A DNA stretch of 64,000 bases from Thermus amyloliquefaciens (GTDB lineage Bacteria; Deinococcota; Deinococci; Deinococcales; Thermaceae), in NCBI RefSeq assembly GCF_000744885.1, contig NZ_JQMV01000003.1, positions 930,001 to 994,000 of the forward strand, read 5' to 3'. The notes under the pieces are model-generated. The model was not told the origin of the DNA and did no database searches. It saw only the letters and a program-made list of their open reading frames with translations. Numbering within the stretch: the stretch's first letter is position 1; the number at the start of each line of letters is the position of its first letter. Below, piece after piece: positions 164 to 23,777 of the stretch. A program made the position numbers and the translations under genes.

Positions 164-613
164 TCATCCTCCGGTCATGGTCCGGGGAAGCCAGAGGGCC
201 ATATCGGGAAAGGCTACGAGGAGGGCCACCATGAGGAGGAGCACCCCCATAAAGGGAAGGGCGTAGCGGGCGATCTGGAAAAGGTCCTCCCCGGTGAGGG
301 ACTGGATGACGAAGAGGTTGAAGCCCACGGGTGGGGTGATCTGGGCCAGCTCCACCATGATCACCAGGTAGACCCCGAACCAAAGGGGGTCCACCCCGAT
401 GGCCTTCACCACCGGCAGGATGACGCTGATGGTGAGGACCACGATGGAGATGCCGTCCAGGAACCACCCCAGCACGACGTACACCAGGCTCAGAAAGAGG
501 ATGAGGAGCACGGGGGTAATCCCCGCCTCCACGGCCCAGGCGGCCAGGGCCCGGGGGATGCCGGTGAAGCCCATGGCCAGGGTCAGGACCCCGGCCCCCG
601 GCGAAGTGAGGAA
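164..613 (-). pseudogene. TRAP transporter large permease (DctM), C-terminal remnant
   Basis: The frame encodes the last third of a TRAP-type DctM large permease: hydrophobic helices, the FLDGISIVVLTISVILPVV segment, the family signature ITPPVGFNLFVI, and a C-terminal membrane helix ending LPRTMTGG. DctM proteins are usually above 420 residues with about 12 helices; here only about 140 residues remain. Upstream the frame runs into non-homologous residues and a stop at 644-646, so the 5' two thirds are missing. No DctP or DctQ gene is visible. The stop almost abuts the MBL-fold gene, suggesting they were once one operon. It is unlikely to make a functional transporter. Confidence 0.75.
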
Positions 614-650
614 GCCAAAGGGGAAGGGGTAGGAGGCCGGGGGCTAGGTC

Positions 651-944
651 CCCGTACCGGTAGCTTTCCGCCACCTCCTGCCCAACGCCCTCACCCCGGT
701 CCTGGTGCAGGCCAGCTACGAGGTGGGGGCGGCCATCCTCACCGCCGCGGGGCTTTCCTTCATCGGCTTTGGGGCCCAGCCCCCTACCCCGGAGTGGGGG
801 GCCATGGTAGCGGAAACCCGCAACTACATGGCCGAGGCCCCTTGGGCGGCCACGGCTCCAGCGGTGGGCATCCTCCTCACCGTGCTGGCCTTCAACCTCC
901 TAGGGGATGGGCTCCGTGACGTGCTGGACCCTCGAGGGCGCTAA
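651..944 (+). pseudogene. Dipeptide/oligopeptide-type ABC permease (DppC-like), C-terminal remnant
   Basis: From the stop at 645-647 the frame is open to TAA at 942-944. It reads RHLLPNALTPVLVQ, then AAILTAAGLSFIGFGAQPP and a final helix ending GDGLRDVLDPRGR. This is the characteristic C-terminus of DppC/OppC permeases (EAA-loop tail, FLGLG-like segment and the LGDGLRDxLDP ending). Intact permeases are about 280-300 residues; about 98 remain, and there is no start codon with a ribosome site before the conserved part. It faces the TRAP remnant head to head across a junction near 614-650, so two unrelated broken transporters are fused there. It overlaps the nagA stop region by 4 bp. Confidence 0.75.
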
Positions 945-2008
945 ACCCTCTGCTTTCCCCCCAGGTACACCTCCCGCACCCTGAGGTCGTGATCCAGCAC
1001 CACCAGGTCCGCCCGCTTCCCAGGGGCGATCTCCCCCCGGTCCCGTAGGTCCAGGTAGCGGGCCGGATAGGAGGAAAGCCTGCGCGCCGCCTCCTCCAAG
1101 GGCACCCCCCAGGCCACCAGGTTCCGGAGGGCCTGGTCCATGGTGAGGGTACTTCCCGCCAAGGAGCCCCCAAGCCAGACCCCGTGGCCCCGCTTCTCCA
1201 CCTGGTGGACACCCAAGGGGTACTTCCCATCCGGCATCCCCGCCGCCGCCACCGCGTCGGTGACGAAGTAAAGGCCGGGGATGCTCTTCAGGGCCAGCTT
1301 CAGGGCGGCGGGGTGCACGTGGAGGCCATCGGGGATGATCTCGGCCCACATGCCCCGCTCCAGGGCCAGGCCCACCACCCCGGGTTCGCGGTGGTGGAGG
1401 CCGGTCATGGCGTTGTAGAGGTGGGTGAAGCCAAAGGCGCCCGCTTCCAGGGCGGCTTCCCCTTCGGCATAGGTGGCGGCGGTATGGCCTAACTGGACGC
1501 GCACCCCGCCTTCTGCCAGGAAGCGGAGAAGGTCCAGGGCCCCGGGGAGCTCGGGGGCCAGGGTGAGGACCTTGACCGGGGCTAGGGAGAGGAGCCAGTC
1601 GGCGATTTCCAGATCCGGGAGGAGGGGGAAGGGGGGCTGGGCCCCGAGGCGGTCTTGGGAAATGAAGGGGCCTTCAAGATGGACGCCGAGGAGGGCTTCC
1701 CCAAGGGGGCCTGCCATGGCCTTTTGGATGCCCCTGAGGGCCTCTTCCAGCTCAGGAAGCGGCGCGGTGACGGTGGTGGCCAAAAGGCCGGTGGTGCCGT
1801 GCTGGAGGTGGAAGCGGAGGGTGGCTTCCACGCCCTCCTGGCCTTCCATCACCTCCCTTCCCCCTCCCCCGTGGACGTGGAGGTCCAGGAAGCCGGGGAG
1901 GATGTAGGGGCCCTCCACGGGGGCTTCCTCTATGGCCTCAATCCACTCGGAGAAGTGGAGCCTGCCCTGGACGAAACCGGTAGGGGTAAGGATGGTGCCT
2001 TCCAGCAT
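941..2008 (-). CDS. nagA: N-acetylglucosamine-6-phosphate deacetylase
   Basis: A 355-aa amidohydrolase-fold protein, shorter than the usual 380. Landmarks are the metal motif LDLHVHGGGG near residue 45, GVHLEGPF (metal-ligand Glu), QLGHTAATY, GFTHLYNAM, and the catalytic region FVTDAVAAAG. NagA removes the acetyl group from GlcNAc-6-phosphate in the cytoplasm, feeding amino-sugar catabolism or peptidoglycan recycling. It lies 9 bp downstream of the collapsed anmK and is co-transcribed with the GntR regulator. Genes for NagB or the sugar transporter are absent nearby except for permease debris. Confidence 0.94.
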   Translation of the reverse strand: MLEGTILTPTGFVQGRLHFSEWIEAIEEAPVEGPYILPGFLDLHVHGGGGREVMEGQEGVEATLRFHLQHGTTGLLATTVTAPLPELEEALRGIQKAMAGPLGEALLGVHLEGPFISQDRLGAQPPFPLLPDLEIADWLLSLAPVKVLTLAPELPGALDLLRFLAEGGVRVQLGHTAATYAEGEAALEAGAFGFTHLYNAMTGLHHREPGVVGLALERGMWAEIIPDGLHVHPAALKLALKSIPGLYFVTDAVAAAGMPDGKYPLGVHQVEKRGHGVWLGGSLAGSTLTMDQALRNLVAWGVPLEEAARRLSSYPARYLDLRDRGEIAPGKRADLVVLDHDLRVREVYLGGKQRV

Positions 2009-4528: not shown

Positions 4529-4859
4529 GGGCCTTCGCCCCATACTTGCCTATAGCAGGTTTCTTTGCGCCTCTAACTGGCCCTCGAGGAGAAGACCCGC
4601 GGTACAGCTTCCATTTGCGCCCGGGGCGGCGGGTAAGGGGCAGGGGGAGCCTCGAGGCTTTCGCAAGCCTTACGCCGGGCTTTTGGCGGTCCTGGCGGCA
4701 AGCTTGGGGGAAGCCCTTGTCGGGAAAAGGCCTTGCGAGTCCTTTCGCCCAAAGTGGTCTATCCCACAGTTATCCCTCCACTTGACGCGCTGCAAAGCCA
4801 AAGTATCCACCCCGTAAGTATTGGTACGTGCCTCCAAAACGCTGAAAACCCCATCTGTG
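4529..4859. other. Intergenic stretch upstream of CRISPR leader 1
   Basis: No convincing coding frame, RNA gene or terminator was seen between the lysA stop and the conserved leader. Composition shifts from GC-rich to more mixed after about 4740. Short frames here lack recognisable protein patterns. Confidence 0.5.
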
Positions 4860-5121
4860 TTGAACCCAGTAAAACGGCGCAGAGAGATGCTACAATGGGT
4901 ATGTCCGGACCACCGGACGGGGATCTTGAAAGGCGGTTTTCCTCTTGGGCAAGGGCAATATGCGCTTTCACCTTTTCATCGGCCCTTTCTCCTGTGGCTT
5001 TTCATCGGCCCAAACCCCGCAAAACCCCCGGTATACGCCATGTGCATATTCCAGCCTTCATGATTCTCACAAACCCCCCCTCCGGGAGCCATGTCCAGGA
5101 CGGTGTTCTTGAGGGGGTACA
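4860..5121 (+). promoter_or_regulatory. CRISPR leader of array 1
   Basis: This 262-bp AT-richer block precedes the first repeat and is clearly homologous to the 261-bp block before array 2 (34739-34999). Conserved parts, in order, are a TTGA-CCAGT start, a -10-like TACAAT at 4891-4896, a GTCCGG/CCGGAC hairpin (4903-4908 with 4913-4918), two direct copies of CTTTTCATCGG (4972-4982 and 4998-5008, 26-bp period), and CCCCCTC/GAGGGGG arms (5076-5082 and 5111-5117) ending 4 bp before the repeat. It should carry the array promoter and, by family knowledge, signals for spacer insertion. Confidence 0.85.
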
Positions 5122-5534
5122 GTTGCACGAGATGCTTCCCCGTAAGGGGATTGCGACGTCGGAAGGTCCGCAGGTCGTCCTCAGGGCCAGTCACCACGGT
5201 TGCACGAGATGCTTCCCCGTAAGGGGATTGCGACTGCTCCCGTAGCCGCCTCAAGCGCTCGCCGATGTTCATACGTTGCACGAGATGCTTCCCCGTAAGG
5301 GGATTGCGACACCGCCGCCCCAACCATCCAAAACGGCTAGGGCATGCTCAAGTTGCACGAGATGCTTCCCCGTAAGGGGATTGCGACGCGTAGCACACCG
5401 CCCAGAGGGGTGGGCCGTAGACCAAGTTGCACGAGATGCTTCCCCGTAAGGGGATTGCGACATCACTAAAAACCCTGCCTATTACCAGCCGCTGAAGGGT
5501 TGCACGAGATGCTTCCCCGTAAGGGGATTGCGAC
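5122..5534 (+). CRISPR. CRISPR array 1: 6 repeats, 5 spacers
   Basis: Six identical 36-bp repeats start at 5122, 5199, 5275, 5352, 5426 and 5499. They begin GTTGCACGAGATG, carry a CCCC-GTAA-GGGG stem-loop and end ATTGCGAC, the likely 8-nt crRNA 5' handle. Spacers are 41, 40, 41, 38 and 37 bp. The repeat is the same as in array 2, so Cas6 from the type III-A locus at 32.5 kb should process both. No intact cas gene adjoins this array. Spacer 2 (5235-5274) reads in antisense as the start of a helix-turn-helix protein. Confidence 0.98.
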
Positions 5535-5562
5535 CCAGGCCATGGGCCTGGGTTTTGTTTTG
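5534..5562 (+). terminator. Rho-independent terminator after array 1
   Basis: CCCAGGCC (5534-5541), loop ATG, GGCCTGGG (5545-5552), then TTTTGTTTTG. The stem starts on the last base of the last repeat. The same hairpin with a different loop follows array 2, so it is a conserved part of the array cassette. Confidence 0.85.
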
Positions 5563-5643
5563 TTGAGGTGCTTTAGGTCATGGTTTACGATGCCCTGGGA
5601 GATAACCGTTGGGTGAGGCTGGCCCATCTCTTGAGGGGAGCCT
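5563..5643 (+). pseudogene. cas2 remnant downstream of array 1
   Basis: This stretch aligns with the first 80 bp of the intact cas2 after array 2 (35745 onward). Shared DNA includes TACGAT, GATAACCGT, GGGTGA and the LANLL-like region; translated fragments read VYDALGDNRWVRLAHLLRG against AYDIPDDNRRVKVANLLKS. A one-base deletion early on breaks the frame, and homology stops near 5643. Array 1 is therefore a decayed duplicate of the leader-array-terminator-cas2 cassette. Confidence 0.7.
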
Positions 5644-5735
5644 CGCCTTCATGTGCTTAAGTCCTCTCCGGATCCACTGGGAAAAGCGGGCAAACGCCTG
5701 CTGGTATTGAAGATGTGGGTAAAGCCCAGGTTCTA

Positions 5736-7304
5736 CTAACCGGTTTGCGCATTGCGGTTTGCGTTGGCGATAATCCCCAGGCCAAGGCCAAGCCTCCACC
5801 AGTGCTGGGGCCACCCCTTGGGGGCTACGGTAAAAGATCGCGCTTCACTCCCTAGTTGCACGTGGACTTGTAAGGGAACCAGTGCGGCCCGTACCGCCAG
5901 AGTGCCTTGGACTTCAGGCTTCAATATTTTCTCCTGTACCAGACGCTCCCCAGCGAATACTTGTACCCGCACGGCACAGCCCGGGGGGTGGGTGCGGACG
6001 AAAGCCCCCTGGAGGTCAACCCAGGCATCCAGGCGTGGCCTTACCTCCACAGGCAACACAGCGATCCGCCGCCACTCGTCCGTCTTGCCGTTGGTCCTCA
6101 CCTCCACGACGAGTTGCTCCTCTTGGCCGGCCTCCTCATCCATCGCTTGAACCAACTCCTCAAGGTTTTCCTTGGCCTCTCCCCCGGAGGCCAGAAGGAA
6201 GCGTAGGGGATGGTGAGCAGGGTCAAAGCCGATGGGGCGTACCTCGAGGGGTTCCCCAGGCTTCCACACCGGCTCGGAGAAGCGAACAGCGAAGGCCTGG
6301 TGGTGTAGGCGAAAGCGCACCACCTCGCCATCCTCAAACGCAACCACAACCTCCTCGGGGATGGGGTCTCCCTCGGGGGTGAATCGGGGTACCCAGGCAA
6401 AGCGCTTAAAGCGCCCATCTTCCAGCGTGACCTTCCCATAAACCTTCCACCCCTCCACGAGGGGCTCCTGGTTTAGCGCCGGCTGTATTTTCTCCAGACT
6501 AGGAGGGAACTCTAAGGGTTCGACCTTCTTCACCTGTTTGTGCCGCAAATGGGTGCGTTTGTGTGCGCGCTCAATAGGCGGTTTATCATCCCTCAGTTTC
6601 CAGTAGAGGTCTTTCAAGGCTTGATCCGAGCGGTTAAAGAGGAGCCGCACGGGGTTGGGCTCCCCCAAATAGAGGCCGGCCTCTTGAAAAAGATCCAAAA
6701 CCGCCTGCTCGTTGCCCAAGTCGGGAAGCGCATTCTCCTCAAGCTCCAGCAGGAGTTGCAAGGCTTCCTCAAGCCTGCGGAACACCTGCTCGTATGCCTG
6801 GGCCCTCGCGGGGAGCTCCCCAGTGCGGTAATAATGTAGGAAGTACTCCTTAAGCACGGCGAGGCGCAGGGCCTTGAAGTGGAAGATTGCATCCAGAGTA
6901 CCTATGAAGTCCCGATCGCCGTTTTCATGGAACTTGAGGCAACGCGCCGTCTCTTCATGCCACCTCAGAACCTCCCATAAGCGGTTGTACTCGGCCTGGG
7001 TAGGATGCGTGTTTTCCACTCCCAGGTCCCTCAGAAAATTGCGCCAGAAGGTCTGGTCGTTTTCTGGTACCTCCCTATAGAGGAAATACCCTCTCAGATA
7101 ACCGAGGAGTACGCGGGCGGGAACCAGTTCTTTCCCTCGCGAGCGGACGGTTTCCAGAAGATTTTCCCACCGCTTACCCTGCCACACCAGGCGCATGAGG
7201 GGTTTTACCCCTTCGTAGTCCTCCTGGGCCACGCGGGCCTGGGCCACCCCGCCCTGTTCCACGGCCTTGTCCAGGTTGGCTGCGTGGGTCCAAGAGTCAA
7301 CCAT
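5736..7304 (-). CDS. Protein of unknown function, last gene of the helicase operon (ORF A)
   Basis: 522 aa; family not recognised. The first half (1-250) is alpha-helical and rich in W, F, Y and charged residues (VWQGKRWENLLETVRSRGKE; FRRLEEALQLLLELEENAL). It is followed by a basic linker (RAHKRTHLRHKQVKKV) and a beta-rich second half with repeated RFxLHxQAF and VRVQVFAGERLVQEKIL-type strands, ending in a hydrophobic Gly-rich stretch (WWRLGLGLGIIANAN). No nuclease or ATPase motif is apparent. Start ATG 7304 overlaps the stop of ORF B by 8 bp, supporting translational coupling; longer upstream frames are out of character. It ends about 90 bp from the cas2 remnant of array 1. Confidence 0.8.
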   Translation of the reverse strand: MVDSWTHAANLDKAVEQGGVAQARVAQEDYEGVKPLMRLVWQGKRWENLLETVRSRGKELVPARVLLGYLRGYFLYREVPENDQTFWRNFLRDLGVENTHPTQAEYNRLWEVLRWHEETARCLKFHENGDRDFIGTLDAIFHFKALRLAVLKEYFLHYYRTGELPARAQAYEQVFRRLEEALQLLLELEENALPDLGNEQAVLDLFQEAGLYLGEPNPVRLLFNRSDQALKDLYWKLRDDKPPIERAHKRTHLRHKQVKKVEPLEFPPSLEKIQPALNQEPLVEGWKVYGKVTLEDGRFKRFAWVPRFTPEGDPIPEEVVVAFEDGEVVRFRLHHQAFAVRFSEPVWKPGEPLEVRPIGFDPAHHPLRFLLASGGEAKENLEELVQAMDEEAGQEEQLVVEVRTNGKTDEWRRIAVLPVEVRPRLDAWVDLQGAFVRTHPPGCAVRVQVFAGERLVQEKILKPEVQGTLAVRAALVPLQVHVQLGSEARSFTVAPKGWPQHWWRLGLGLGIIANANRNAQTG

Positions 7305-7764
7305 CCCGTATCCCCTCCAGCCAGGTGAGGAGGGCCCATTCCAGCACGAGACTCGTGCGCACCCGCCGCCAGTCGGGTATCTCACCGGCGAGGGCCCGAG
7401 AAAGGGCCGCCTCCCGTTCTTCCCAGATGGCTTTGAGCCAGGGCTCCAGTCTGCGTCCGCCCAGTTCACGGGCCTCCTCAATCAGCGCCTGGTCCCAAAG
7501 CTCCAGTGCCTGCGCCAGGTGGCGGAAGAAGCCCTCGTTCAACGCAGGCCGAGACAGCACCTCCAACTGCTTCTGGGCCTGTTGCAAGGCCTGTTTGTGC
7601 TCCTCGCATTGCTGGCTGAGGATCTCGAGCTGCCTTTTGAGCTGCAGGATCTCCTTACTTTGCTCCCCCAATCGCTCTTCCAGGTTTTTCTTTTGCTCTT
7701 CCCAACGTTTTCTATCTTCCTCCCACCTTCGCTCGTACCACCTCAGCGCCTCTGTGCAGTCCAT
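7297..7764 (-). CDS. Small coiled-coil protein of the helicase operon (ORF B)
   Basis: 155 aa, family not recognised. Residues about 8-75 form a long charged coiled coil (RWEEDRKRWEEQKKNLEERL, then QLKRQLEILSQQCEEHKQAL). A helical domain follows: LNEGFFRHLAQALELWDQAL and RTSLVLEWALLTWLEGI. The layout of a long helix followed by a compact helical part is reminiscent of GrpE-like or adaptor proteins, but this is only a resemblance. The start ATG at 7764 overlaps the TGA of ORF C by one base; a GTG at 7767 is the alternative. The stop overlaps ORF A. Confidence 0.8.
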   Translation of the reverse strand: MDCTEALRWYERRWEEDRKRWEEQKKNLEERLGEQSKEILQLKRQLEILSQQCEEHKQALQQAQKQLEVLSRPALNEGFFRHLAQALELWDQALIEEARELGGRRLEPWLKAIWEEREAALSRALAGEIPDWRRVRTSLVLEWALLTWLEGIRDG

Positions 7765-8714
7765 CACTCCTCCGTCAAGCGGGGTGAGGAAAGCCGCTGG
7801 CCCTCCTGCAATAACGCCTCTAGGCGGAAGGCGTGCACTCTTAGCCAGCGGGCGAGGGGAAGGTTGACCAGGTCTTCCAGCAACTTCTCCAGCCCCACCA
7901 GCACAATTCCCTCCGCTTCGCCCCTAAGGAACTCACGGTTGCTGTGGCGGAGGGCAGGGTGGTCTTCTCCTTTGAGAAGGGCCTGGTATCCCTCAATAAG
8001 GGCCATTACCCGCTCTTCTGCTTTGCCCCCAAAGCTGGGGTACTCCAGCACCAGCACCCGAAGCAAGGCCTCCTGGGGGAAGGGCTCGGGCAGGGTCTCC
8101 TTAAAGCTGCTGAGCCTGGCAAGCTGGGCCTCGAGGTCCTCCTTTTGCTCCGCAATGCCCTCCAGCTCACCCAGCCTGGCCTCCAGCTCCGCCACGCGCC
8201 CTACAAGGGTCTCAAGCTGCTCTTTCAGCGCCTCTTTTTCTGTCTGGAGCCTTCGCTTTTCTTCCCCTACCGTTGCCAGTTCCTTACTGAGGCGATCCCT
8301 TTCCTCCTTAACCTGCGAAAGCTCCTTGCGCCAATGTGCTGCCTCCTGCAAAGCTTTTGCTTTAGCGCTCTCCGCTTCCTTTAAAGCTCTTTCCGCCTGC
8401 TGAAGCTTCACCTTGAGCTTTTCAGCCTCGTCCGCTTTTTTCTTGAACCTGTTTTGGTACTCTCGCAACCTGCGCGGGAGGTCTTCCTGGTTAGGGGCTG
8501 GCTCGCCCACAGCGACCTTACGAGGCATTTTTTCCTGGAGCGGGCCTCTAAGGGGTTGCTTGTCCAGGATGGAGGGGGTGGCGGGCCTTTCCTTGAGGTT
8601 TAGCGGCAGGGCCTCGAGGTCCTTCTTCAGGGAGGACAAGGAGCCCTTGGCCTCGGGTGGAAGGCCGAGGACAATCCGCGTCACTTCCCTCAAGACCTCC
8701 TCAGGCTCCGCCAT
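7764..8714 (-). CDS. Coiled-coil protein of the helicase operon (ORF C)
   Basis: 316 aa, family not recognised. Residues 1-75 are a low-complexity linker with a short N-terminal helix (PEEVLREVTRIVLGLPPEAK). Residues about 78-200 are an uninterrupted heptad-rich coiled coil (SQVKEERDRLSKELATVGEE and neighbours). Residues 210-316 form a helical C-terminal domain (LLRVLVLEYPSFGGKAEERV; VNLPLARWLRVHAFRLEALL). It overlaps the 3' end of the giant helicase gene by 14 bp. A structural or scaffolding role linking the helicase to ORFs A and B is an inference from order and shape. Confidence 0.8.
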   Translation of the reverse strand: MAEPEEVLREVTRIVLGLPPEAKGSLSSLKKDLEALPLNLKERPATPSILDKQPLRGPLQEKMPRKVAVGEPAPNQEDLPRRLREYQNRFKKKADEAEKLKVKLQQAERALKEAESAKAKALQEAAHWRKELSQVKEERDRLSKELATVGEEKRRLQTEKEALKEQLETLVGRVAELEARLGELEGIAEQKEDLEAQLARLSSFKETLPEPFPQEALLRVLVLEYPSFGGKAEERVMALIEGYQALLKGEDHPALRHSNREFLRGEAEGIVLVGLEKLLEDLVNLPLARWLRVHAFRLEALLQEGQRLSSPRLTEE

Positions 8715-11700
8715 GCACCTCCTCCTTCCTCAGTCGGCGCTCGTAGCGGGCACGGCCCCGCTCGGTAAGCCCGTAAAGCGGGCTGCCGTTGTACTCGCCC
8801 TTTTTCTCAAGATACTTCTGCTTTACCGCCTCCTCAAAGGCGCGTTCCAGTTCCTTGCGTCGGATGAAGGAGAGGTGGCCGAAGTAGCGGTTATCCGTGT
8901 ACTTGCGACCCAGGAGGCTGTTCCCGACGCGGTCCTTGCCCCGCAGAGCACTTATGGTGCTTTCTTTGCCTAGATACATGTGGCCTTCTTCCTGTGACCA
9001 AGCATTGTCCTCGGCCCAAGCGAAAAAGGCTAACAGCGTGTCCAGGGGGCGGTAAGCCCGCTCAAGCTCCTCCGCCTCCAAGGCCTCTAGGGCTTCCCAA
9101 GGGCCGTTCTCGCGCGTGCAAACGTCGCAGGTGCCGCAGGGGGCCAGGGTCTCGCCCAGATGCTTGAGCAGAGCCTGGGGACGGCAGCGGTTGTACTCGG
9201 CGTAGCGTTCCACCTGATTTAACCGCTTTTCGGCCTCGTTCTTAAGGTTTCGCCGCTCCTTGTCCCATTGGCGGTAGCCCCCCTCGAGGCGCTCGCCCGC
9301 TTCCACGCGGAGCAGGGGTTCCCGGTACTGGTAAAGCCCTATTTTCCGCTCCCGGAAGAGCTGGTAAAGCTTTTGGTCCAGGTTTTGGGCATCTTCTAGG
9401 ATGCGGGAGAAGTCAAGCTCATCGCCCCGTTCGCTACCCCGGTAGCCAGCCTGACGCAGAAGGGCCATTTCTTCGGCCGTGAGGTACTTGCGGAGAGTCT
9501 CCTCGGACTCCTGGAGCAGGACCTTTCCCGGCAAGTACTCGTAGCGTAACACCCCAGCCCGCTCAAGGCTGGAGAGGGTGCGCTCAAGGTTCTCGAGGCC
9601 TAACTCCCGCCGAACGGGGGCGGTGGTCTCTTCCTCGTCTTCTTCTTCCTCATCGTCCTCTTCCCGGAGGACATCCTCGGCTTCGCCTTCTTCGGGTTCG
9701 CTGGCGTAAATCTCTCGGTACAGGTTTTCTCGGTAATCCGTTAAGACAACTTCCTCTTGCAGCAGTTCGATGAGCTGGTTGACAAAGTCCGCCTCGGCAT
9801 CGCGGGCTTTTCCCGCCCCGACAGACCAGCGAAGAAGCGCCCAGTCCCTCTTGGTGCATAGGAGCAGGCAGTAGGCATCCTTTCCATCCCGCCCCGCACG
9901 CCCTGACTGCTGGATGTACTCCTCCAGGCTGCGGGGGGGCTGCCAGTGGATTACCAGGCGGATGTTCGCCTTGTCGATGCCCATGCCGAAGGCGGTGGTG
10001 GCCACCATGACCCGGGTTTCGCCGGAGGCGAAGCGCTCCTGGGCTTCGCGGCGGGGGACCGGGCCCAGGCCCGCGTGGTACGCCTCCACCTGCAGGTCAG
10101 GGAAGAGGCGGCCCAGGGCCCAAGCCAGCCGCTCTGCCTCGGCGCGGGTAGCGGTGTACACGATGGCGCTGCCACCTTCGCCTTGCTCCACGAGCCAATG
10201 AAGGGCTTTGGCCAGGATCTGGAACTTGCCCACCTCCCCCTGCGCCTTCCTCACCACAAAGTGAAGGTTGGGGCGGTGGAAGCTTGTGGGCTTGATCAGC
10301 TCGTAAGTGCTCAGTTTCGCCGCCTTCTTCAACAGCTCCAAGTCCTTCGGGCTTAGGGTGGCGGTGAAAAAGCTCTTTGGAACCCCCTCCAGGGGCTTCA
10401 GCTTCTCCAGGGCTTTGAGGTAGTCCGGTCGGAAGTCAAAGCCCCACTCCACCAAACAGTGGGCTTCGTCGAAAACCACCCGCCGAAGTTCCCCCGCCGC
10501 GTGCCTCTCCTGGAGCAGCTTCCAAAGTTCCTCGCTCCGGTTGAGACGCTCGGGGCTTACGTAGAGAAGTTGCACCCGACCAGTCCTGACCTCATCCAGC
10601 ACGCTCCTTTGCTCGCCTGAGCCCATCAGCGAGTGCACCGCACCCACCGGCAAACCCAGCTCCATGAGCCGGTCCGCTTGGTCCTTCATCAGGGCCACCA
10701 ACGGGGAGATCACCAGGGTGAGGCCCGGTTGCATAAACGCGGGAAGCTGAAAAGCAAGGCTCTTGCCAAAGCCGGTGGGTAGCAGGGCCACCAGGTCTTT
10801 TCCCTCGAGGGCCGCCTGGACGGCCTGGGCTTGCTTGGTCCAGCGCTCGCCATCCAGCAAAAGCCCGTACACCTCCTGTGCGATCCGCCGGGCTTTTTCT
10901 CGGGGCTCGAGGCTCGATTGCAGAATTTCCTTCAGGCGGCGCTGGGCTTCTTCTTCCAGTTCCTCTTGGGGGAACCGGGCCCGGTCTACCCCCAGGATCT
11001 CCGCCAGCAGGTCGTAAAGCTCCTTCCGATCCTCGGGGAAGTGTCGGTGAACGCCCGGCGGTAGGGCACGGTAAAAGACCCCCTGGTAGGCGGCGTTGAG
11101 GAGCTTTTTGTCCCAAAGGACGAAGGCTCCGTCCCCCACTTCTCGTTGATCCCGGATCAGCCGACCGAAGGCCTGCGCAAAGGAAAGGGCGGCCTTGGGC
11201 AGGTAATAGTCCCACCATCGGTCCAGCCCCTGCTCATAGGCCTGCTCCATGCGCTTGGTCAGGAGTAGGGAGGGCAGGGGGAAGGGGATTCGCTCCAGGT
11301 TCACCAGTTTCAACGCCGGGAAGTCCACCCCTTCCATGTAGCTCCGCGAGCCCAGGGCGGCCACCGGGGCCTTGGGGTCTTGCTTGATCCGGCTCGCTAT
11401 GTCCTCCCGCTCCTTGCGGGTAAGGGGGGCAAGAAGGTGGGGGAGGTCCTTCAGGGCCTCCTTGGCATCTTCTAGCCGCCGCAAGCTGGTGAAGAGGGAG
11501 AGGCTGCGGTGGGCTTCGGGTAGGAGGACCCTAAGTTCCTGGTGGAGCATGCGCTGGAAGCGGGGCAGGGTGCTCTCGCGGGCTTCGGGGAGGTGGCGGG
11601 GCACCACCAGGTGTGCTTTTTCGTAGGGGAGAGAGGGGGGTAACCGCTGGTGTATGGCTTCCTCAAGGCCCAAGAGCCGTTTGAAGAAAGCAAACCCCTC

Positions 11701-13704
11701 AGGGTCGCTCTGGGTGGGCACGCTTAAGGTGGCGCTGGTGAGGATGACGCTCTTGAAGCGGGGCCACAGCTTTGCCTTGAGGGCGAGTGAGATGTCCACC
11801 GGCTGAGCCAGGTGGCGCCAGCTCTCGGTTATGGGGTCCCATTCTGAAAGGTGGAGCCTGTTGGGGTCGGGATTCCCCTGGGCCAGCCCGAGCACCTTGC
11901 GCCGCTCAAAGAGTAGATCCAGCGCGTCCTGGATATACTCCTGAATGGGTGCCAGGTCCCGCCCCATGAGGCTTCTCGGGTCCTGGCCTATGAGCTTGAG
12001 CGCCTCCTTAAGCTGACGAAGCCCATCAATGAGAGACTGCTCCTCCCGATCGATGAGGGGCCACTCCTCGAACCTACGCCAGGTGCTGCCCAGCCCCAGG
12101 CTAAGGCCGTAGCGCTGGTCTCCAGAACCACGCTTCTTGATGAGGGCCACCAGATGGCGGGAATAGTTGTTCAAGGTCTCACGAAGTCTGGGAAGCAACT
12201 TTTGGACGACCTCTTTAGCCTTGGCCTGCTTTTCCTCGGACAGCTCGGCCAGCCGACGGTCATCCCTGAGAAGGCCCCGGTCCTTTTGGGGATGGGCCAG
12301 GCGGTTGATCACGTGGGTGAGTTCCTCGTGGTCCAGGACCAAGGTGAGGGCTTCGGTGGCGGTGTCCTCGAGGTGGTGGGCCTCGTCAAGCACCAGGTGA
12401 GCCTCTTTTACTGGCTCTCCTTGCTCCTCTTCGGCCCGCAGGAAGTTGGCCAGGAGGTAAGCCTGGTTGGCAACCAGGATCTGAGCCGCTTTGCGATGGT
12501 TTAGCTGGCGTTGGAACGCGCAGGAGTGGAAAAAGGGGCAGTCTGCCCGGCAGCGTTGGGGATTGGTGCCTACCCGGTTTCTCACCTCGCGGAAGCCTCG
12601 GGAGAAGTGCCAGTAACCGGGAAGGGCCTCGAGGTCGTGCTCCCCAAGGGCTGCGTAGTGCAGGAGGAGCCCCACCGCGGTCCTGAGCTCTTCGTCCTCT
12701 TCCGTCCTAAGGTCCAGGAAGAGCTCGAAGAGGGCCTCCGGGCACAGGGTGTCTCGTGGGCTCTTGACCAGGGCTGCCTTGACCTCATAGCCCATTTTGC
12801 CCAGGTTCGCGAGTTCGTCCAGAACCTGAGCTTGGAGCACCTTGGTATGGGTGGCTACCCAGGTCTTCTCACCCCGGTGCAAAGCGGGATAGAGGTATCC
12901 TTTGGTCTTGCCCGTTCCGGTGGGGGCCTCCAGGAGCACCTGGCGTCCATCCTGCAGGGCCTCGTTTACCTTCGCGAACATCAGCTCCTGGGCTGGCCTC
13001 CTCTGGGGGAGGAGGTCTTTTCCCAAGAGGGAGGGATGGGGCAGGCGCTGACCCTCGTACAAAACTGGCTCCACCGAAGCGGGTGTGGCCAGGAGCTCCT
13101 TGACCAGGACCGGGGTTTCCGCAAAAAGTTCCCCCTCGGGGAGCCTGAGCTCCCGCCAGGCCCGGGTCACCCCCTCGGGCAGCTTTTGCAGCACCAGCCC
13201 GGTCAGGACGCTCCAAGTAGCCTCCACGTCGGTCTGGGCCCGGTGGGCCCCTTCCAAGGGTGATCCGGTGAGGTGGGCGTAGAGATCCCCTAGGCGGTAA
13301 CTGGGAAGCCCGTCGGGTGGTTTGGGAAAAACCAAATGCGCTAAGCGCAGGGTATCCAAAGCGGGTTTTGCTGTGGGAGGGAGTTTCAGACCAATCTGCC
13401 CCAGGACCCGTTCCAGAATGGGCAGGTCGTAGCGTAGTAGGTTGTGGCCAAGCAGAGGGCGATCCCCAACAAAATCCAGGAACTCCTTGAGCGCCTTTTC
13501 TAACGGCACCTTTTCCCGCTCGTATTCCTCAAAGGGGATGCCGGTGATCCGGAAGGCTTCGTGACTGGCCTCGAGGGGTGTGGAGGTGGCTACGTACCAA
13601 TGACGGGTCCGGCCCTCCGCGTCCTGGGCGGCGATCTCCAGGATCTCCGCCTCCTCCGGGTTGGGGGAGGTGGTTTCAAGGTCCAAGGCTACATAAGGTT
13701 TCAT
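8701..13704 (-). CDS. Giant DEDDh exonuclease-DinG helicase-RecQ helicase fusion (ORF D)
   Basis: 1667 aa with three enzymatic modules in one chain. Residues 1-170: DnaQ-like 3'-5' exonuclease (D8, E10 in ALDLETT; D93; H154 and D159 in HRAQTDVEA). Residues 220-910: DinG/XPD-type helicase with Walker A EAPTGTGKT (259-267), four candidate Fe-S cysteines C321, C385, C389, C395, DEAH at 440-443, and motif VI SFAQAFGRLIRD (841-852). Residues 950-1530: RecQ helicase with PTGFGKS (976-982), DEAH at 1079-1082, QQSGRAGRDG, and a Cys zinc site ending CGTCDVC. An acidic linker sits near 1340. Either helicase alone is common; both plus the nuclease in one protein is unusual. It is first in a four-gene overlapping operon, and a DNA-processing or defence role is inferred. 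Confidence 0.93.
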   Translation of the reverse strand: MKPYVALDLETTSPNPEEAEILEIAAQDAEGRTRHWYVATSTPLEASHEAFRITGIPFEEYEREKVPLEKALKEFLDFVGDRPLLGHNLLRYDLPILERVLGQIGLKLPPTAKPALDTLRLAHLVFPKPPDGLPSYRLGDLYAHLTGSPLEGAHRAQTDVEATWSVLTGLVLQKLPEGVTRAWRELRLPEGELFAETPVLVKELLATPASVEPVLYEGQRLPHPSLLGKDLLPQRRPAQELMFAKVNEALQDGRQVLLEAPTGTGKTKGYLYPALHRGEKTWVATHTKVLQAQVLDELANLGKMGYEVKAALVKSPRDTLCPEALFELFLDLRTEEDEELRTAVGLLLHYAALGEHDLEALPGYWHFSRGFREVRNRVGTNPQRCRADCPFFHSCAFQRQLNHRKAAQILVANQAYLLANFLRAEEEQGEPVKEAHLVLDEAHHLEDTATEALTLVLDHEELTHVINRLAHPQKDRGLLRDDRRLAELSEEKQAKAKEVVQKLLPRLRETLNNYSRHLVALIKKRGSGDQRYGLSLGLGSTWRRFEEWPLIDREEQSLIDGLRQLKEALKLIGQDPRSLMGRDLAPIQEYIQDALDLLFERRKVLGLAQGNPDPNRLHLSEWDPITESWRHLAQPVDISLALKAKLWPRFKSVILTSATLSVPTQSDPEGFAFFKRLLGLEEAIHQRLPPSLPYEKAHLVVPRHLPEARESTLPRFQRMLHQELRVLLPEAHRSLSLFTSLRRLEDAKEALKDLPHLLAPLTRKEREDIASRIKQDPKAPVAALGSRSYMEGVDFPALKLVNLERIPFPLPSLLLTKRMEQAYEQGLDRWWDYYLPKAALSFAQAFGRLIRDQREVGDGAFVLWDKKLLNAAYQGVFYRALPPGVHRHFPEDRKELYDLLAEILGVDRARFPQEELEEEAQRRLKEILQSSLEPREKARRIAQEVYGLLLDGERWTKQAQAVQAALEGKDLVALLPTGFGKSLAFQLPAFMQPGLTLVISPLVALMKDQADRLMELGLPVGAVHSLMGSGEQRSVLDEVRTGRVQLLYVSPERLNRSEELWKLLQERHAAGELRRVVFDEAHCLVEWGFDFRPDYLKALEKLKPLEGVPKSFFTATLSPKDLELLKKAAKLSTYELIKPTSFHRPNLHFVVRKAQGEVGKFQILAKALHWLVEQGEGGSAIVYTATRAEAERLAWALGRLFPDLQVEAYHAGLGPVPRREAQERFASGETRVMVATTAFGMGIDKANIRLVIHWQPPRSLEEYIQQSGRAGRDGKDAYCLLLCTKRDWALLRWSVGAGKARDAEADFVNQLIELLQEEVVLTDYRENLYREIYASEPEEGEAEDVLREEDDEEEEDEEETTAPVRRELGLENLERTLSSLERAGVLRYEYLPGKVLLQESEETLRKYLTAEEMALLRQAGYRGSERGDELDFSRILEDAQNLDQKLYQLFRERKIGLYQYREPLLRVEAGERLEGGYRQWDKERRNLKNEAEKRLNQVERYAEYNRCRPQALLKHLGETLAPCGTCDVCTRENGPWEALEALEAEELERAYRPLDTLLAFFAWAEDNAWSQEEGHMYLGKESTISALRGKDRVGNSLLGRKYTDNRYFGHLSFIRRKELERAFEEAVKQKYLEKKGEYNGSPLYGLTERGRARYERRLRKEEVHGGA

Positions 13705-13762
13705 GGTCTGCGAGGGTTTCTTGATACCTGGGCCTCTGGGGGGCTACCGCACAGGTTCTACA

Positions 13763-13820
13763 TGCCAGAAGGTCGCAGGCGACAGGCCCATTATACCTTG
13801 GCGACCTTGCCTTCTGGGAA
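13763..13820 (-). promoter_or_regulatory. Promoter/operator of the helicase operon
   Basis: On the minus strand a perfect TATAAT lies at 13795-13790, 86 bp before the ATG at 13704. Two nested inverted repeats flank it: AAGGTCGC (13769-13776) with GCGACCTT (13801-13808), and CCAGAAGG (13765-13772) with CCTTCTGG (13810-13817). No good -35 is visible. The dyad around the -10 suggests repressor binding or an RNA hairpin. Confidence 0.6.
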
Positions 13821-14000
13821 TGTATCCCCTTTGCCTCAGGCTTGACCTGTGTACCCCCTTTTGGGGTAGTTTGCTCTCCACGATCTTGCGCGAGACCCTA
13901 TCCCAGGACCCCGACCCCCGCGCCACAAACCGCCGGGCGGGCTCCGTGCGGTTCCTGGGGCTCTATGCAGCATAGCGGTCCAGTCTGAACCTCCCTGGAG
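13821..14000. other. Intergenic; possible coding debris
   Basis: A plus-strand frame ending at the TAG at 13973-13975 reads STILRETLSQDPDPRATNRR, then FLGLYAA. Its codon use is gene-like but I do not recognise it; it may be the tail of a deleted gene. Nothing else was identified. Confidence 0.3.
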
Positions 14001-14035
14001 TTGCATTTTGTCGCCACAAATACGACAATAAGCTC
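14001..14035 (+). promoter_or_regulatory. Leaderless promoter and operator of the RES toxin-antitoxin pair
   Basis: TTGCAT (14001-14006), 17 bp, then GACAAT (14024-14029); the ATG follows after 6 bp, implying a leaderless mRNA. The inverted repeat TTGTCG (14008-14013) / CGACAA (14023-14028) lies between and over the hexamers, a likely autoregulatory operator for the antitoxin. Confidence 0.65.
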
Positions 14036-14413
14036 ATGACCCTACCCGCCAACCCCCTGGACCGGGCGGAGCTGGTGGCCCAAGGGCTCCCGCGGGAAGC
14101 CCTGGAGGAGATCCGCAAGAGCCTGGAGCTCACCCAAGGGGAACTGGCCCAGGCCTTGCGCACCACCCCGAGGACCCTGCAACGCCAAGGCCCCAGGCTC
14201 ACCCCCGAGCTTTCCGACCGCCTCTACCGCCTCTACCGCCTTTGGGAGCGGGCCCTCCTCTTCCACGGGGACGAGGCCCGGGCCCGCCGCTTCCTCAAGA
14301 CCCCCAATCCGGCCCTAGGGGGCAGAAGGCCCTTGGACCTGGTGGGCAACGAGGCGGGTCTGGAGGCAGTGTTGGACCTCGTGGACAACCTGGAGGAAGG
14401 GGTCTACCTCTAG
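14036..14413 (+). CDS. DUF2384 (Xre-MbcA-ParS) antitoxin
   Basis: 125 aa. The N-terminal half holds an Xre-like helix-turn-helix (ELTQGELAQALRTTPRTLQR, residues about 38-57). The C-terminal half is the MbcA/ParS toxin-binding domain, recognisable by RLYRLYRLWERALLFHGDEA and FLKTPNPALGGRRPLDLVGN. Such proteins neutralise RES-domain NAD-degrading toxins and repress their own promoter. The toxin gene starts 3 bp after the stop. The start is leaderless behind GACAAT. High confidence from domain pairing. Confidence 0.92.
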   Translation: MTLPANPLDRAELVAQGLPREALEEIRKSLELTQGELAQALRTTPRTLQRQGPRLTPELSDRLYRLYRLWERALLFHGDEARARRFLKTPNPALGGRRPLDLVGNEAGLEAVLDLVDNLEEGVYL

Positions 14414-14416
14414 CCC

Positions 14417-14899
14417 ATGCGGGCCTACCGTTTGGTGAAGGAGGCCCACGCTCCAGAGGCCCTCACCGGGAGGGGTGCGGCCTTGAGGGGCGGGCGCTGG
14501 AACCCCAAGGGCTTGCCCGCGGTCTACGCCAGCGAGCACCTGGCCCTGGCGGTCCTGGAGTGGCTGGCCTACGCCCTGGAGTTCCCCTCCCTGCGGGGCT
14601 ACGTCTACTTCCGGCTGGAGGTGCCCGAGGCCCTAATCCGGGAGCCAAAGGCCCTGCCTGAGGACTGGCGGAACCTGCCCTACCCGGCTTCCACCCAGGC
14701 GTTGGGGCGGGCTTTCCTGGAAGCGGGCGAGGGGCTGGCCCTGCGGGTGCCTTCTGTCGTGGTGCCCGAGGGGTGGAACCTGGTGCTCAATCCCCGGCAT
14801 CCCGCCTTTGGGGAGGTAAATGTGGAAGGGCCTTTCCCCTTTGTTCCCGATGCGCGCCTCGAGGGCCTTTGGGCCCGGGCGCGGGGGGTGGGGGGCTAA
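14417..14899 (+). CDS. RES-domain toxin (predicted NAD+-degrading)
   Basis: 160 aa, normal for the family. Conserved motifs include the Arg in MRAYRLVKEA, the Gly-rich GRGAALRGGRWNPKG, Tyr and Glu in VYASEHLALAVLEWLAYA, and the terminal RHPAFGEVNVEGPFPFVPDA carrying the family's N-P-x-H region. RES toxins (MbcT, ParT relatives) consume NAD+ or ADP-ribosylate targets. The key Arg, Tyr and Glu positions look intact, so it should be active when released from the DUF2384 antitoxin. Confidence 0.92.
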   Translation: MRAYRLVKEAHAPEALTGRGAALRGGRWNPKGLPAVYASEHLALAVLEWLAYALEFPSLRGYVYFRLEVPEALIREPKALPEDWRNLPYPASTQALGRAFLEAGEGLALRVPSVVVPEGWNLVLNPRHPAFGEVNVEGPFPFVPDARLEGLWARARGVGG

Positions 14900-14923
14900 G
14901 TGCTCCCGCCTTGTCCTCGCCTC

Positions 14924-15415
14924 ATGCCAGCACCTTTTGGCCTCCACCCGACTCCCGAGGAGGATGCCCAACTGGGGGAACCGAAGACCAACCCCCTAAT
15001 GCCCCACAAGGTGCGCCGCCGGGCCCAGGGCTGGACCGCCCCCCGCATCGCCCACCACCTGGGCTTGGACCGGACCACGGCCCGGCGGGACCTGAGGTGG
15101 GAGGGGTCCATGGGCTGGCGGACGGCAAGGCCCCCAGGTCCAAGACCTGCAGGAGCTTTTGTCCCAGGGCAGGCCTGGTCTCTTCCTGCTCCTGGAGGCC
15201 CTGGAGAGGCGCTTGCGGATGCGCTTCCACCCAGAGACGGTGAGGCGGAAGCTCCTGGTCCTGGGGTGCCGGTGGAAGCGGACGCGGTACGTGCCCGTGG
15301 GGAAGCCATGGGAGGAGGTGGTCCTTGCCGTGGCGGAGCTATGGGAGTGTGGCGGAGTTGCGGGAGTTGGGGGAGCGTTTGGAGAGGGGGGTGGGGCAAG
15401 GTTTATGCGTGGGCA
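14924..15415 (+). pseudogene. IS630-like transposase remnant, copy 1
   Basis: Fragments in changing frames read MPAPFGLHPTPEEDAQL, then KVRRRAQGWTAPRIAHHLGL and RTTARRDL (a helix-turn-helix typical of IS630 transposases), then RFHPETVRRKLLVLGCRWKR. No catalytic DDE domain survives. Its opening (14910-14975) matches the region at 25330-25400, and its tail (15325-15415, GCGGAGCTAT and GGGGGAGCGTTTGG) matches 25490-25555 and 40230-40310, so three eroded copies of one element exist in the window. Confidence 0.6.
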
Positions 15416-15425
15416 CTTAGCCCCT

Positions 15426-19771: not shown

Positions 19772-21184
19772 CTAGCGCCGCTTGAGCTCCACTTTTTCTG
19801 CGGAGATCACCCCCCCAGACAGGGTACCCTTGACCTCCACGCGGTCCCCCTCCTGCAGGAGGGAGAAGAACTCCCCTTGGCTCAGGTAGCGGTCCTGGGC
19901 TTCAAAGCGGGTGGTGGGGCTTGTGGTCACCAGATAACCCAGGAGCTGGAAGGTATAAGCGGTGCGGTCCACCGCCGAAGCCGGGCCTTCCCACTCAGAA
20001 GTTCCATTTTCCCCGCCGGTGCCTTTGATCTCCACCTTCACCGCATAGAAGCGGCCATCGGCGTCAAGGGTGGAGGGGTCGTAGCGGACCTCGGCGTGGT
20101 CGCCCACCCTTATATCCGCAAAGGCGATGGGTCCGTCAGGGTCGTCCCGCTTGAGGACCGTGCGGCTGTCCACATAGAAGCGGAGGGAGCCCAGCTCAAA
20201 GGTGTAGGCCGCGGGGTCAATGGCGGTGACCTGCCCCTTTGCCTCGGCCTTGGGGGGACGGGAGCCGGGGTATTTCACCTTCACCAACTGGGCGTGGAGA
20301 AGGCTGGGATTGGCGGGATCCAGCTGCCCCTTCGCCTCCACGTAGACACCCTCGGAGAGGGTGCCCACCACGGTGGCCCCACGGTAGTCCACCAGGTACC
20401 CAAGAAGCTGGAAGGTCTTGGCCGTCTCGTCCAGGGCCTGGATGGGGCCTTCCAGCTCCAGGCGCCTCGAGGCCCCGTATCCGTTATGCCCCGAGGTCTT
20501 AAACTCCACCTTGCTGGCTTGGATGGTGGTTCCGGAGAGAATGCCCTTGACCTCTACCCATGCGCCTTCTTTAGGTGTGCCCGTCACGCGGGCTCCGGAG
20601 TAGTCCACCACGTACCCGTTCAGGAGGAAGGTCATGGCCGCAGGGTCCAGCCCGGTGGCCTGGCCTTCCAGCTCCACCCCCTGGGTAGCGGCGGGGTAGC
20701 GCTCAATGTAGGAGGCCAGGACGCCGGAGGCCGTGGCCGTTCCGTGCACCTCCACCACGTCCCCCACCCTTAGGTCGCTGAGCAACAGGGTGCGGTACAC
20801 ACCCCCTGCCTTCTCGTAGATCCGGGTGTTGGCGTCGGTCTGTACCCCTTGCCCTAGGACCTCGAGGGTCCCGGCCATCGGGTCCAGGGCGGTGATGGGA
20901 CCCTTTAGCTCCACACGAACGTCCAGGCTGGCTACGCGCACCGTGGAGCCCAGGTCCTGGCCGGACACCTGGACCACCATGCCAGGGAGCAGGGTTCCAG
21001 TGAAGGCCTCCCCTTCCTTGGTCAGGCTGGCCCCGGAGGTATCCAGGGCCTTACCCATCAGGGTGGGCCGCTCCGGCGTGCCCCCCAGCACCCCCACGGC
21101 CTGGTACTCCTGCCCCGCCTGGGGCCCGAGCTGGCATGCGGCGAGGAGAACCATGCTCCAGAAAAGGATGAGCCTCTTGCCCAT
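19772..21184 (-). CDS. Lipoprotein with tandem DUF5666 repeats
   Basis: 470 aa. An N-terminal lipoprotein signal (SMVLLAAC lipobox, Cys about 17) is followed by about five repeated beta domains, each with a LEGPIQALDxxAxTFxLLGY-like opening, a strand such as YLVDYRGATV, and a VxVKGxLxGxxIxAxKVEFK close. The repeats are visible near residues 92, 170, 250, 320 and 395. DUF5666 domains are OB-like and of unknown function, found in envelope proteins. Only 22 bp separate it from the upstream histidine kinase, so it is probably a target or partner of that system. Confidence 0.85.
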   Translation of the reverse strand: MGKRLILFWSMVLLAACQLGPQAGQEYQAVGVLGGTPERPTLMGKALDTSGASLTKEGEAFTGTLLPGMVVQVSGQDLGSTVRVASLDVRVELKGPITALDPMAGTLEVLGQGVQTDANTRIYEKAGGVYRTLLLSDLRVGDVVEVHGTATASGVLASYIERYPAATQGVELEGQATGLDPAAMTFLLNGYVVDYSGARVTGTPKEGAWVEVKGILSGTTIQASKVEFKTSGHNGYGASRRLELEGPIQALDETAKTFQLLGYLVDYRGATVVGTLSEGVYVEAKGQLDPANPSLLHAQLVKVKYPGSRPPKAEAKGQVTAIDPAAYTFELGSLRFYVDSRTVLKRDDPDGPIAFADIRVGDHAEVRYDPSTLDADGRFYAVKVEIKGTGGENGTSEWEGPASAVDRTAYTFQLLGYLVTTSPTTRFEAQDRYLSQGEFFSLLQEGDRVEVKGTLSGGVISAEKVELKRR

Positions 21185-21206
21185 GTTTCACCCCCCGAGG
21201 CCCAGG

Positions 21207-22310
21207 CTACCCTCCCGGCGTAAACGGGGCGTAAACATCGTCCCCCCGGGGAAGCCAGAGGACAAACAAGGCTCCGCCCTCGGGGTGGTTGCCCGCCTGG
21301 ATGCGGCCCCCCATGGCTTCCACCAGGCTCTTGGCGATGGAAAGGCCAAGCCCGCTGCCGCCGCGGCCGCGGGCGGGGTCGCCCCGGTAAAAACGCTGGA
21401 AGACCCTTTCTTCCTCCCCCGGTTTCAGGCCGGGTCCGGTGTCCCACACCGCTAGGCGCACCCCTGACCCCTCCTCCTCCAAGGACACCTCCACCCGTCC
21501 CCCTGCCGGGGTGTGCCGGATAGCGTTGTCCAGGAGGTTGTGGAGCACCCGCTGGAGGGCTTCCCGGTCCGCAAGCAGGGGAGGGGCTTTGCCGCGGAGC
21601 TGGAGGTCCACCCCCTTGGCCGCGGCTTTGGCGGCATGGGCCTCCAGAACCCCTCGCACCAGGCTCTGGGCGTCCAGGCGCTCGGGGGTAAGCCGCAGGC
21701 CACCGCTTTCCGCCAGGGTGAGGAGGCGCAGGTCCTCCACCAACCGCCCCAGGAGCCGTACCTCCTCCTGAAGGCGGCGGAGGTGCTCCGGGGTGCAGGG
21801 GAGGAGGCCGTCCTCCAGGGCCTCGAGGTCTCCCTGGAGCACGGTGAGGGGGGTACGCAGGTCGTGGGCGATGTCGGCGAGGAGCCGCTTTTCCTCTGCC
21901 TCCTTCCGGGCAAGCTCATCCAAAAGCTGGTTAAAGCTTTGGGCCAGCCCTGCCACCTCGTCTTGCCCCTGCACCTGGGCCCGGCGGGTGCGGTCCCCCC
22001 GGCGGTAGGCCTCAGCGGTTTGGGCAAGCTCTCGCACGGGACGCACCAGCCCCAAGGCCAGGAGGAGCCCGGCCCCTAGGCCCATAAGCAGGGCGGCGCC
22101 GGAGGATACCGCCACAGCTCCGCGTAGCTCCTGCAGGATGCGGCGTTCCCGGAGGCCCAGCCGGGGGGCAGGAGCGGCTGGACCCAGCCCCAGGGCCATG
22201 GCCCGTTCTAGGTGGCTGGAGGCGGCCCGGTAGGCCAGGAACCCGGAGAGCCCCGCCACCAAAAGGGCTACCAGGGCCATGGCCAAGGCAAGGCGGGCGG
22301 TGAGGCTCAT
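21207..22310 (-). CDS. Sensor histidine kinase (second two-component system)
   Basis: 367 aa. The N-terminal helix (LALAMALVALLVAGLSGFLA) and a second helix (SGAALLMGLGAGLLLALGLV) enclose only about 50 periplasmic residues, so external sensing is minimal. HAMP follows (RPVRELAQTAEAYRRGDRTR), then the H-box LLADIAHDLRTPLTVLQGDL, N-box LQRVLHNLLDNAIRHTPAGG, and G boxes VWDTGPGLKPGEE and RGGSGLGLSIAKSLVEAMGG. It overlaps the stop of the response regulator gene by 4 bp. Confidence 0.93.
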   Translation of the reverse strand: MSLTARLALAMALVALLVAGLSGFLAYRAASSHLERAMALGLGPAAPAPRLGLRERRILQELRGAVAVSSGAALLMGLGAGLLLALGLVRPVRELAQTAEAYRRGDRTRRAQVQGQDEVAGLAQSFNQLLDELARKEAEEKRLLADIAHDLRTPLTVLQGDLEALEDGLLPCTPEHLRRLQEEVRLLGRLVEDLRLLTLAESGGLRLTPERLDAQSLVRGVLEAHAAKAAAKGVDLQLRGKAPPLLADREALQRVLHNLLDNAIRHTPAGGRVEVSLEEEGSGVRLAVWDTGPGLKPGEEERVFQRFYRGDPARGRGGSGLGLSIAKSLVEAMGGRIQAGNHPEGGALFVLWLPRGDDVYAPFTPGG

Positions 22311-22978: not shown

Positions 22979-22994
22979 ACCCTTAGCCTAGAGC

Positions 22995-23025
22995 AAGGGG
23001 CCTCCCCTTCAGGGGGAGGCCCCTT
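22995..23025 (-). terminator. Hairpin terminator between the secreted protein and the second two-component operon
   Basis: A perfect 13-bp stem, AAGGGGCCTCCCC (22995-23007) with GGGGAGGCCCCTT (23013-23025), lies 9 bp past the stop at 23034. The loop is 5 nt. It separates the 23.0-kb gene from the regulator gene. Confidence 0.75.
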
Positions 23026-23033
23026 ACCGGGGC

Positions 23034-23588: not shown

Positions 23589-23689
23589 GGCCTTCTCCTT
23601 TCTGACCCTTCCCAGGGTCGCCCCTAGGGTAGGCGGGGAAGGGTGAAGGGAGAAGGACTTCCGCGTGAACCGGAGGTGAACGGCCAGCG

Positions 23690-23713
23690 GCCCCGCCCTG
23701 GCTTGGGCGGGGC
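23690..23713 (-). terminator. Hairpin after the glutamine amidotransferase gene
   Basis: GCCCCGCCC (23690-23698) pairs with GGGCGGGGC (23705-23713), about 65 bp beyond the stop at 23778. No T-run is seen. Confidence 0.5.
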
Positions 23714-23777
23714 TACAGAAAGATCACGGGCGAGCCGCCTTGGTGTTGGCCGATAGAGCAAGCTTTGTGCAGGGCAG

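Follow-up and report, generated by a model that had tools for sequence, protein, structure and literature searches.

Four overlapping genes of Thermus amyloliquefaciens form a real, mobile and conserved module, which we describe here from a 64,000-nucleotide stretch of DNA (the window). We named the fusion gene at its head F and the three genes after it X, Y and Z, in operon order; the operon F-X-Y-Z spans positions 5736-13704 on the minus strand (Table 1). Judging from its sequence, it is probably a horizontally mobile candidate defence module directed against foreign DNA, a broad statement that is surer than its details. We favour this reading because the catalytic motifs are kept under purifying selection, the four genes are inherited together, the module is mobile and patchy and has defence genes as neighbours, and recQ of T. 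thermophilus HB27 is a permissive shell gene.

Table 1. Features of the window and domains of F. Positions are nucleotides of the window unless residues are stated.
Feature	Position	Strand	Description
F	8701-13704	-	1667 aa; DEDDh exonuclease + DinG-type Fe-S helicase + RecQ helicase (RecQ Zn + winged-helix region)
RNase_T / DEDDh exonuclease	F residues 5-166		PF00929 (Pfam)
DinG-type helicase	F residues about 234-884		ends in Helicase_C_2 (PF13307), 730-883 (Pfam)
RecQ helicase	F residues about 933-1310		DEAD 957-1123 + Helicase_C 1160-1274 (Pfam)
RecQ_Zn_bind	F residues 1484-1530		Pfam
RQC	F residues 1579-1652		weak, sub-threshold Pfam match
X	7764-8714	-	316 aa; coiled-coil protein
Y	7297-7764	-	155 aa; ATG start; GTG one codon upstream is a possible alternative start
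Z	5736-7304	-	522 aa; ATG start; helical + Ig-like protein
Inserted island, 10.9 kb	4543..15415		just downstream of lysA; CRISPR array + operon + RES-Xre + IS remnant
CRISPR array	5122..5534		6 copies of 36-nt repeat, 5 spacers
Xre/MbcA/ParS-type antitoxin	14036..14413	+	TIGR02293 (E 1.6e-27), PF09722; island cargo, outside module
RES-domain toxin	14417..14899	+	NF049844 (E 8.7e-42); island cargo
IS remnant	14892..15424		33-bp imperfect terminal inverted repeats; right edge of island
Type III-A CRISPR-Cas locus, intact-looking	25625-34450		Cas10, Csm3, Csm4, Csm5, Cas6, two Csx1/Csm6-type CARF-HEPN proteins
Second CRISPR array	35000-35638		9 repeats; 36-nt repeat identical to that of orphan array 5122-5534

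Neighbouring genes of the operon overlap by 14 bp (F/X), 1 bp (X/Y) and 8 bp (Y/Z), and the starts of X, Y and Z are each preceded by a GGAGG-type ribosome-binding sequence. The reading frames, lengths, overlaps and coordinates given in the initial annotation were all correct. When this operon was compared with its relatives, dN/dS was 0.18-0.28 for all four genes. This indicates purifying selection and therefore the operon is not a product of chance; on the conserved motifs, the dN/dS values and the recovery of 17 loci, we rejected chance or artefact as its origin. The GC content of the operon is 61.4%, as opposed to 67-68% in its flanks. None of the four proteins shows a hydrophobic stretch of the kind that forms membrane helices.

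By its sequence, the protein F has three intact enzymatic parts, a 3'-5' DEDDh exonuclease and two SF2 helicases, one of the DinG type and one of the RecQ type. The exonuclease motifs DLExx, HNxxxxD and HxAxxD are kept across 19 F homologues (one database copy is N-terminally truncated), and so are both Walker A/B motifs (one copy has DEGH in place of the DinG DEAH) and the RecQ motifs LPTGxGKS, DEAHC and QxxGRAGRD (motif VI). The Fe-S cysteines, C321, C385, C389 and C395 in the window copy, are kept in all but 2 of the 19, each of the two divergent copies L063 and L064 missing one cysteine. The Pfam domains and these motifs agree with the initial annotation, which had called F a fusion of a DEDDh exonuclease, a DinG/XPD-type Fe-S helicase and a RecQ helicase with intact catalytic motifs. 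The RecQ had also been called complete. We found the helicase, the Zn-binding domain and a weak RQC region, but no HRDC match in Pfam. The RecQ part passes the TIGR00614 recQ_fam model (312.9 bits, cutoff 219.8), which makes it a RecQ family member, and stays below the housekeeping RecQ equivalog TIGR01389 (338.5 bits, cutoff 640.2). The DinG part scores below every DinG equivalog listed in NCBIfam. In T. thermophilus SG0.5JP17-16 (L107, 9977-14916) F is annotated in pieces, and X, Y and Z are still open.

By Pfam order and motifs, F has the defining architecture of ExoDinG proteins such as S. aureus DinG, an N-terminal DEDDh 3'-5' exonuclease followed by a DinG-like helicase. It departs from them in that the DinG helicase is followed by a complete RecQ; ExoDinG proteins lack both this half and X, Y and Z, and a full Fe-S site is missing from their forms in Bacillales and Lactobacillales. 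A 2025 review that sorts DinG-like proteins into ten groups contains no mention of RecQ (PMC11981726). In the PDB, F matched the S. aureus DinG structures (8zef/9ii8) over residues 2-476, and WRN helicase was also among the matches. Like F, WRN joins a 3'-5' exonuclease and a RecQ helicase in one polypeptide, but it is eukaryotic and has no DinG half. The WRN exonuclease belongs to a subfamily other than that of F.

F also matches the PADLOC type IV DinG profile (E 9e-83). A CRISPR accessory helicase similar to type IV-A CasDinG (Csf4), recruited to a crRNA effector, would share with F a DinG-type helicase in plasmid-borne defence. Surveys of Thermus list DinG with the type IV Cas genes (PMC5529391), and several copies of the operon have CRISPR arrays or cas genes in their vicinity. 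However, the DinG part reaches 48.3 bits on the Csf4 equivalog TIGR03117, far under its cutoff of 400, none of the copies had csf genes next to it, F is constantly accompanied by X, Y and Z and not by cas genes, and F has a RecQ and an exonuclease fused to its DinG part. We rejected a type IV CRISPR helicase on the Csf4 score and the absence of csf genes, and consider any recruitment of this kind very improbable.

Another possible role for such a protein is DNA repair. In many bacteria, helicases of the RecQ and DinG families serve in repair, and F, aided by X, Y and Z as cofactors, might process crosslinks, forks or R-loops at high temperature. S. aureus exo-DinG, the closest characterised protein, has 3'-5' exonuclease and 5'-3' helicase activity and acts in crosslink repair, for which both activities are needed (PMC12345164), and RecQ is listed among the repair proteins of HB27 (PMC13140390). 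Yet the module is missing from the majority of Thermus genomes, HB8 and the nearest relatives among them, and it has been moved horizontally and is sometimes broken. Within Thermus, this fusion accounts for all strong DinG-domain matches, so the genus otherwise lives without a DinG of this type. RecQ Zn domains occur in 9/27 Thermus genomes, and about half of the matches are this fusion. In a Tn-seq study, HB27 recQ was scored as a highly permissive gene of the shell pangenome, in data which by the paper's own warning do not separate essential genes (PMC13140390). Because the distribution is patchy and the module was horizontally moved, we demoted a housekeeping repair gene, and an accessory repair function appears unlikely to us.

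The three partners gave little to work with at the level of families. X and Y produced only coiled-coil profile matches and Z none at all in Pfam, PADLOC and NCBIfam. The predicted structure of X consists of a long helix (residues 79-207, the coiled coil) and a small conserved C-terminal domain (220-302), with no fold match in structure comparison. Y likewise has a coiled coil and a conserved C-terminal domain. Z was modelled by AlphaFold2 (pLDDT 83.1, pTM 0.51) as a helical region (1-240) followed by tandem Ig-like beta-sandwich domains (about 258-495), and fold comparison returned only generic Ig-like/FN3 matches (Z-score at most 7.7). It ends in a conserved C-terminal motif, WWRxGLGLG. The coiled-coil profiles and this model are in line with the two coiled-coil proteins and the half-helical, half-beta-rich protein of 522 residues proposed initially. 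No catalytic fold or motif was recognised in X, Y or Z. In the three most distant loci, the identity to the window copy is 23-30% for X, Y and Z and 41-44% for F. RefSeq labels Z as 'transcription antiterminator BglG' in L072 (16299-17843) and other T. thermophilus records; this name looks wrong, since the window orthologue is matched by no Pfam or NCBIfam model.

We then compared the occurrence of the four genes. Full-length F is present in 14 of the 111 Deinococci genomes and Z adjoins it in all 14, with X and Y sitting between them, although in G040 an inserted stretch interrupts X and in G030 the reading frame of Y is disrupted. G055 keeps X, Y and Z, with the end of F lying at a contig edge, and only fragments of the operon were found in G026, G027, G032 and G069. 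Within Thermus, 5 full copies occur among 27 genomes, and decayed or IS-disrupted copies are found elsewhere. The pairwise distance matrices of F, X, Y and Z correlate at r 0.92-0.97 (17 loci), which indicates that X, Y and Z are co-inherited with F. T. thermophilus HB27 carries the whole set in identical order on pTT27 (TT_RS10770-TT_RS10755), with all four genes open; its F (TT_RS10770) is about 56% identical to the window copy.

Among plasmid records (PLSDB), 22 have F matched at 80% coverage or more (21 from Thermaceae, 1 from Deinococcus), and 21, all Thermaceae, have Z. The Deinococcus protein, 33-35% identical to F, is the sole fusion without Z among plasmid records. It is encoded on a Deinococcus actinosclerus plasmid (L073, 5081-15739), downstream of an FtsK-like gene, with a UvrD helicase upstream and an 886-aa open reading frame downstream. 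This orphan was compared with X and Z and matches neither. The Deinococcus fusion with its other partners is possibly a second version of the system. The initial annotation had proposed that the four genes travel together, and had named in advance what would speak against it, a fusion common without the three small genes. We found only this distant plasmid copy without them, so the proposal was not refuted. When 84,980 species were scanned with two short peptide patterns, which distant forms could escape, triple fusions turned up in Thermales only. In viral_contigs neither F nor Z had a relative, and in phage records F was matched by RecQ-domain hits only, so we rejected a viral origin of the module.

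The operon lies on an inserted island beside lysA. In two operon-free close relatives, G051 (L121) and G058 (L122), lysA (ending at 4528 in the window) adjoins the gene with its far end near 15426, and window position 4542/4520 is joined directly to 15416 at 83-89% identity, which represents the empty site. In G067 the site is nearly empty and bears a short scar. F of the window is 79% identical to that of G024 and 76% to that of G023, both of another genus, but within Thermus 62% to G046 and 58% to both G063 and G060. RecA shows the reverse order (80% G024 and 79% G023, as against 98% G046, 97% G063 and 93% G060), as does LysA (65% G024, 89% G046). Therefore, F was moved between genera. Pieces related to the IS remnant (14892-15424) recur many times in Thermus genomes. 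G052 and G066 carry the RES-Xre pair (14001-14899) elsewhere, at 91% DNA identity, which suggests that the pair moves independently.

The operon had been placed between a decayed CRISPR cassette and a RES toxin-antitoxin pair. The pair is there and, with the CRISPR array, flanks the operon; the array is, however, an orphan with 6 repeats and no cas gene recognised within the 10.9-kb island, and an intact-looking type III-A locus and the second array, which has an identical repeat, lie further along the window at 25.6-35.6 kb. Other copies of the operon have defence genes close by. In G004 it is situated between DISARM DrmA (E 5e-280) on one side and HsdM, HsdS, a PIN protein and an HsdR N-terminal domain (type I R-M) on the other. 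HmaC/DUF499 is near the operon in G063 (HmaC E 1e-190), BrxL in T. oshimai, Cas3 and Cmr genes in HB27, Cas1, Cas2 and Cas4 in A. silvanus, Cas6 and a Csm5-like protein in G009, and a VapC pair in T. aquaticus. In total, clear defence genes or arrays lie beside the operon in about 7/18 loci, with flanks annotated to uneven depth among the loci. As a crude control in raw counts, 132 features listed for three 45-kb stretches elsewhere on these plasmids included one Argonaute and a few toxin-antitoxin or HEPN genes. That Thermus megaplasmids are rich in defence-type genes anyway counts against the argument from neighbours. The module is mobile and patchy and, going by the raw neighbour listing, near defence genes, as candidate defence systems are. 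The empty site, the horizontal transfer and the defence neighbours strengthen the early suggestion of a defence island.

The neighbours also bear on a third role, in which the module would aid replication, resolution or stable inheritance of its carrier megaplasmids. Many copies are plasmid-borne (the 21 records of PLSDB), the operon of G063 has a RepA gene (PF10134) 0.55 kb upstream, and that of M. taiwanensis is next to rep/parA/parB. In most loci, however, there is no rep gene beside the operon, one megaplasmid persists with a broken fusion, and there are copies outside plasmids: the lysA island described here, G009 on a single 2.27-Mb contig, and the G004 island between DISARM and R-M. We give plasmid maintenance a low probability. 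The initial annotation had kept repair or plasmid maintenance beside defence, and with rep/par genes adjoining some loci the two still have to be reckoned with at these low probabilities.

Two further gene groups recur around the operon. One is a vWA gene with a Tubulin_2 gene adjacent or close to it, seen by the operon or its remnants in L058 (12230-16667), L067 (282-4367), L104 (A. silvanus, 20719-25019, where a WYL regulator is also present) and L076 (T. oshimai); the two genes may constitute a separate conflict system. In several species, the region upstream of the operon contains TROVE and/or YbjN-family genes (L104 5184-9646, L106 368-2323, L058 2942-3484).

The set had been annotated as undescribed, which holds for the four genes together but not for the fusion. 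A DnaQ-DinG-RecQ fusion of T. thermophilus HB27, missing from HB8, was described by Omelchenko et al. in 2005 (PMC1274311), and it is the orthologue of F with the same three domains. The accessible part of that paper mentions the fusion and its absence from HB8, and not the three partner genes, mobility or defence. The fusion protein is thus already known, and the four-gene system is absent from the catalogues searched: F-X-Y-Z matches no named system in PADLOC 2.0.0 (2023), NCBIfam (2026) or Pfam (2025). In PADLOC 2.0.0, F was matched solely via its helicase and exonuclease domains, X and Y via the coiled coil, and Z by nothing. A literature search, which reached mostly openly accessible papers, found the four-gene set described nowhere. 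The RecQ part of F is matched by the RecQ-type profiles of DpdF and PsyrT, and DISARM, BREX, Hma, type I R-M, Dpd and PsyrTA all are helicase-based defence systems, some of whose genes (DISARM, BrxL, Hma, R-M) neighbour copies of the operon. None of them has the architecture of F or X, Y and Z, and the matches reflect shared helicase domains.

If the module is indeed a defence system, the composition of F suggests how it could work. DinG family helicases move 5'-3' and RecQ enzymes move 3'-5'. Given these polarities, one chain with both could travel one way along a duplex, with each motor on a different strand; we infer this bipolar motor from the behaviour of the families. F would unwind DNA from an end, gap or fork, and the 3' strand would be passed to its exonuclease and degraded, in a RecBCD-like manner but with other enzymes. 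RecBCD and AddAB use SF1 motors and RecB-type nucleases. The expected shared principle, translocating motors with a nuclease at DNA ends, is an analogy only, as no sequence relation to F was found. X, Y and Z could be an assembly, DNA-loading, recruiting or sensing part, for which the support is weaker, and they would limit the engine to invading phage, plasmid or transforming DNA. They are candidates for discriminating self from foreign because they are constant partners with no recognisable catalytic motifs and evolve faster than F. Tentatively, F might be a single-chain, SF2-based analogue of RecBCD that is loaded or licensed by three new protein families, a full picture which we consider possible rather than likely.

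The system is directly testable, since the laboratory strain HB27 carries four open genes and HB8 is reported to be without the fusion. Thermostable parts of it could serve structure work. Confirmation would correct databases that class the DinG part with type IV CRISPR or enter the fusion as a RecQ for repair, and would add three protein families, X, Y and Z, without annotated relatives. Thermophilic bacteria would then have an undescribed, self-contained and mobile immune system with an unusual engine, in which two opposite SF2 helicases and an exonuclease are combined in each chain.
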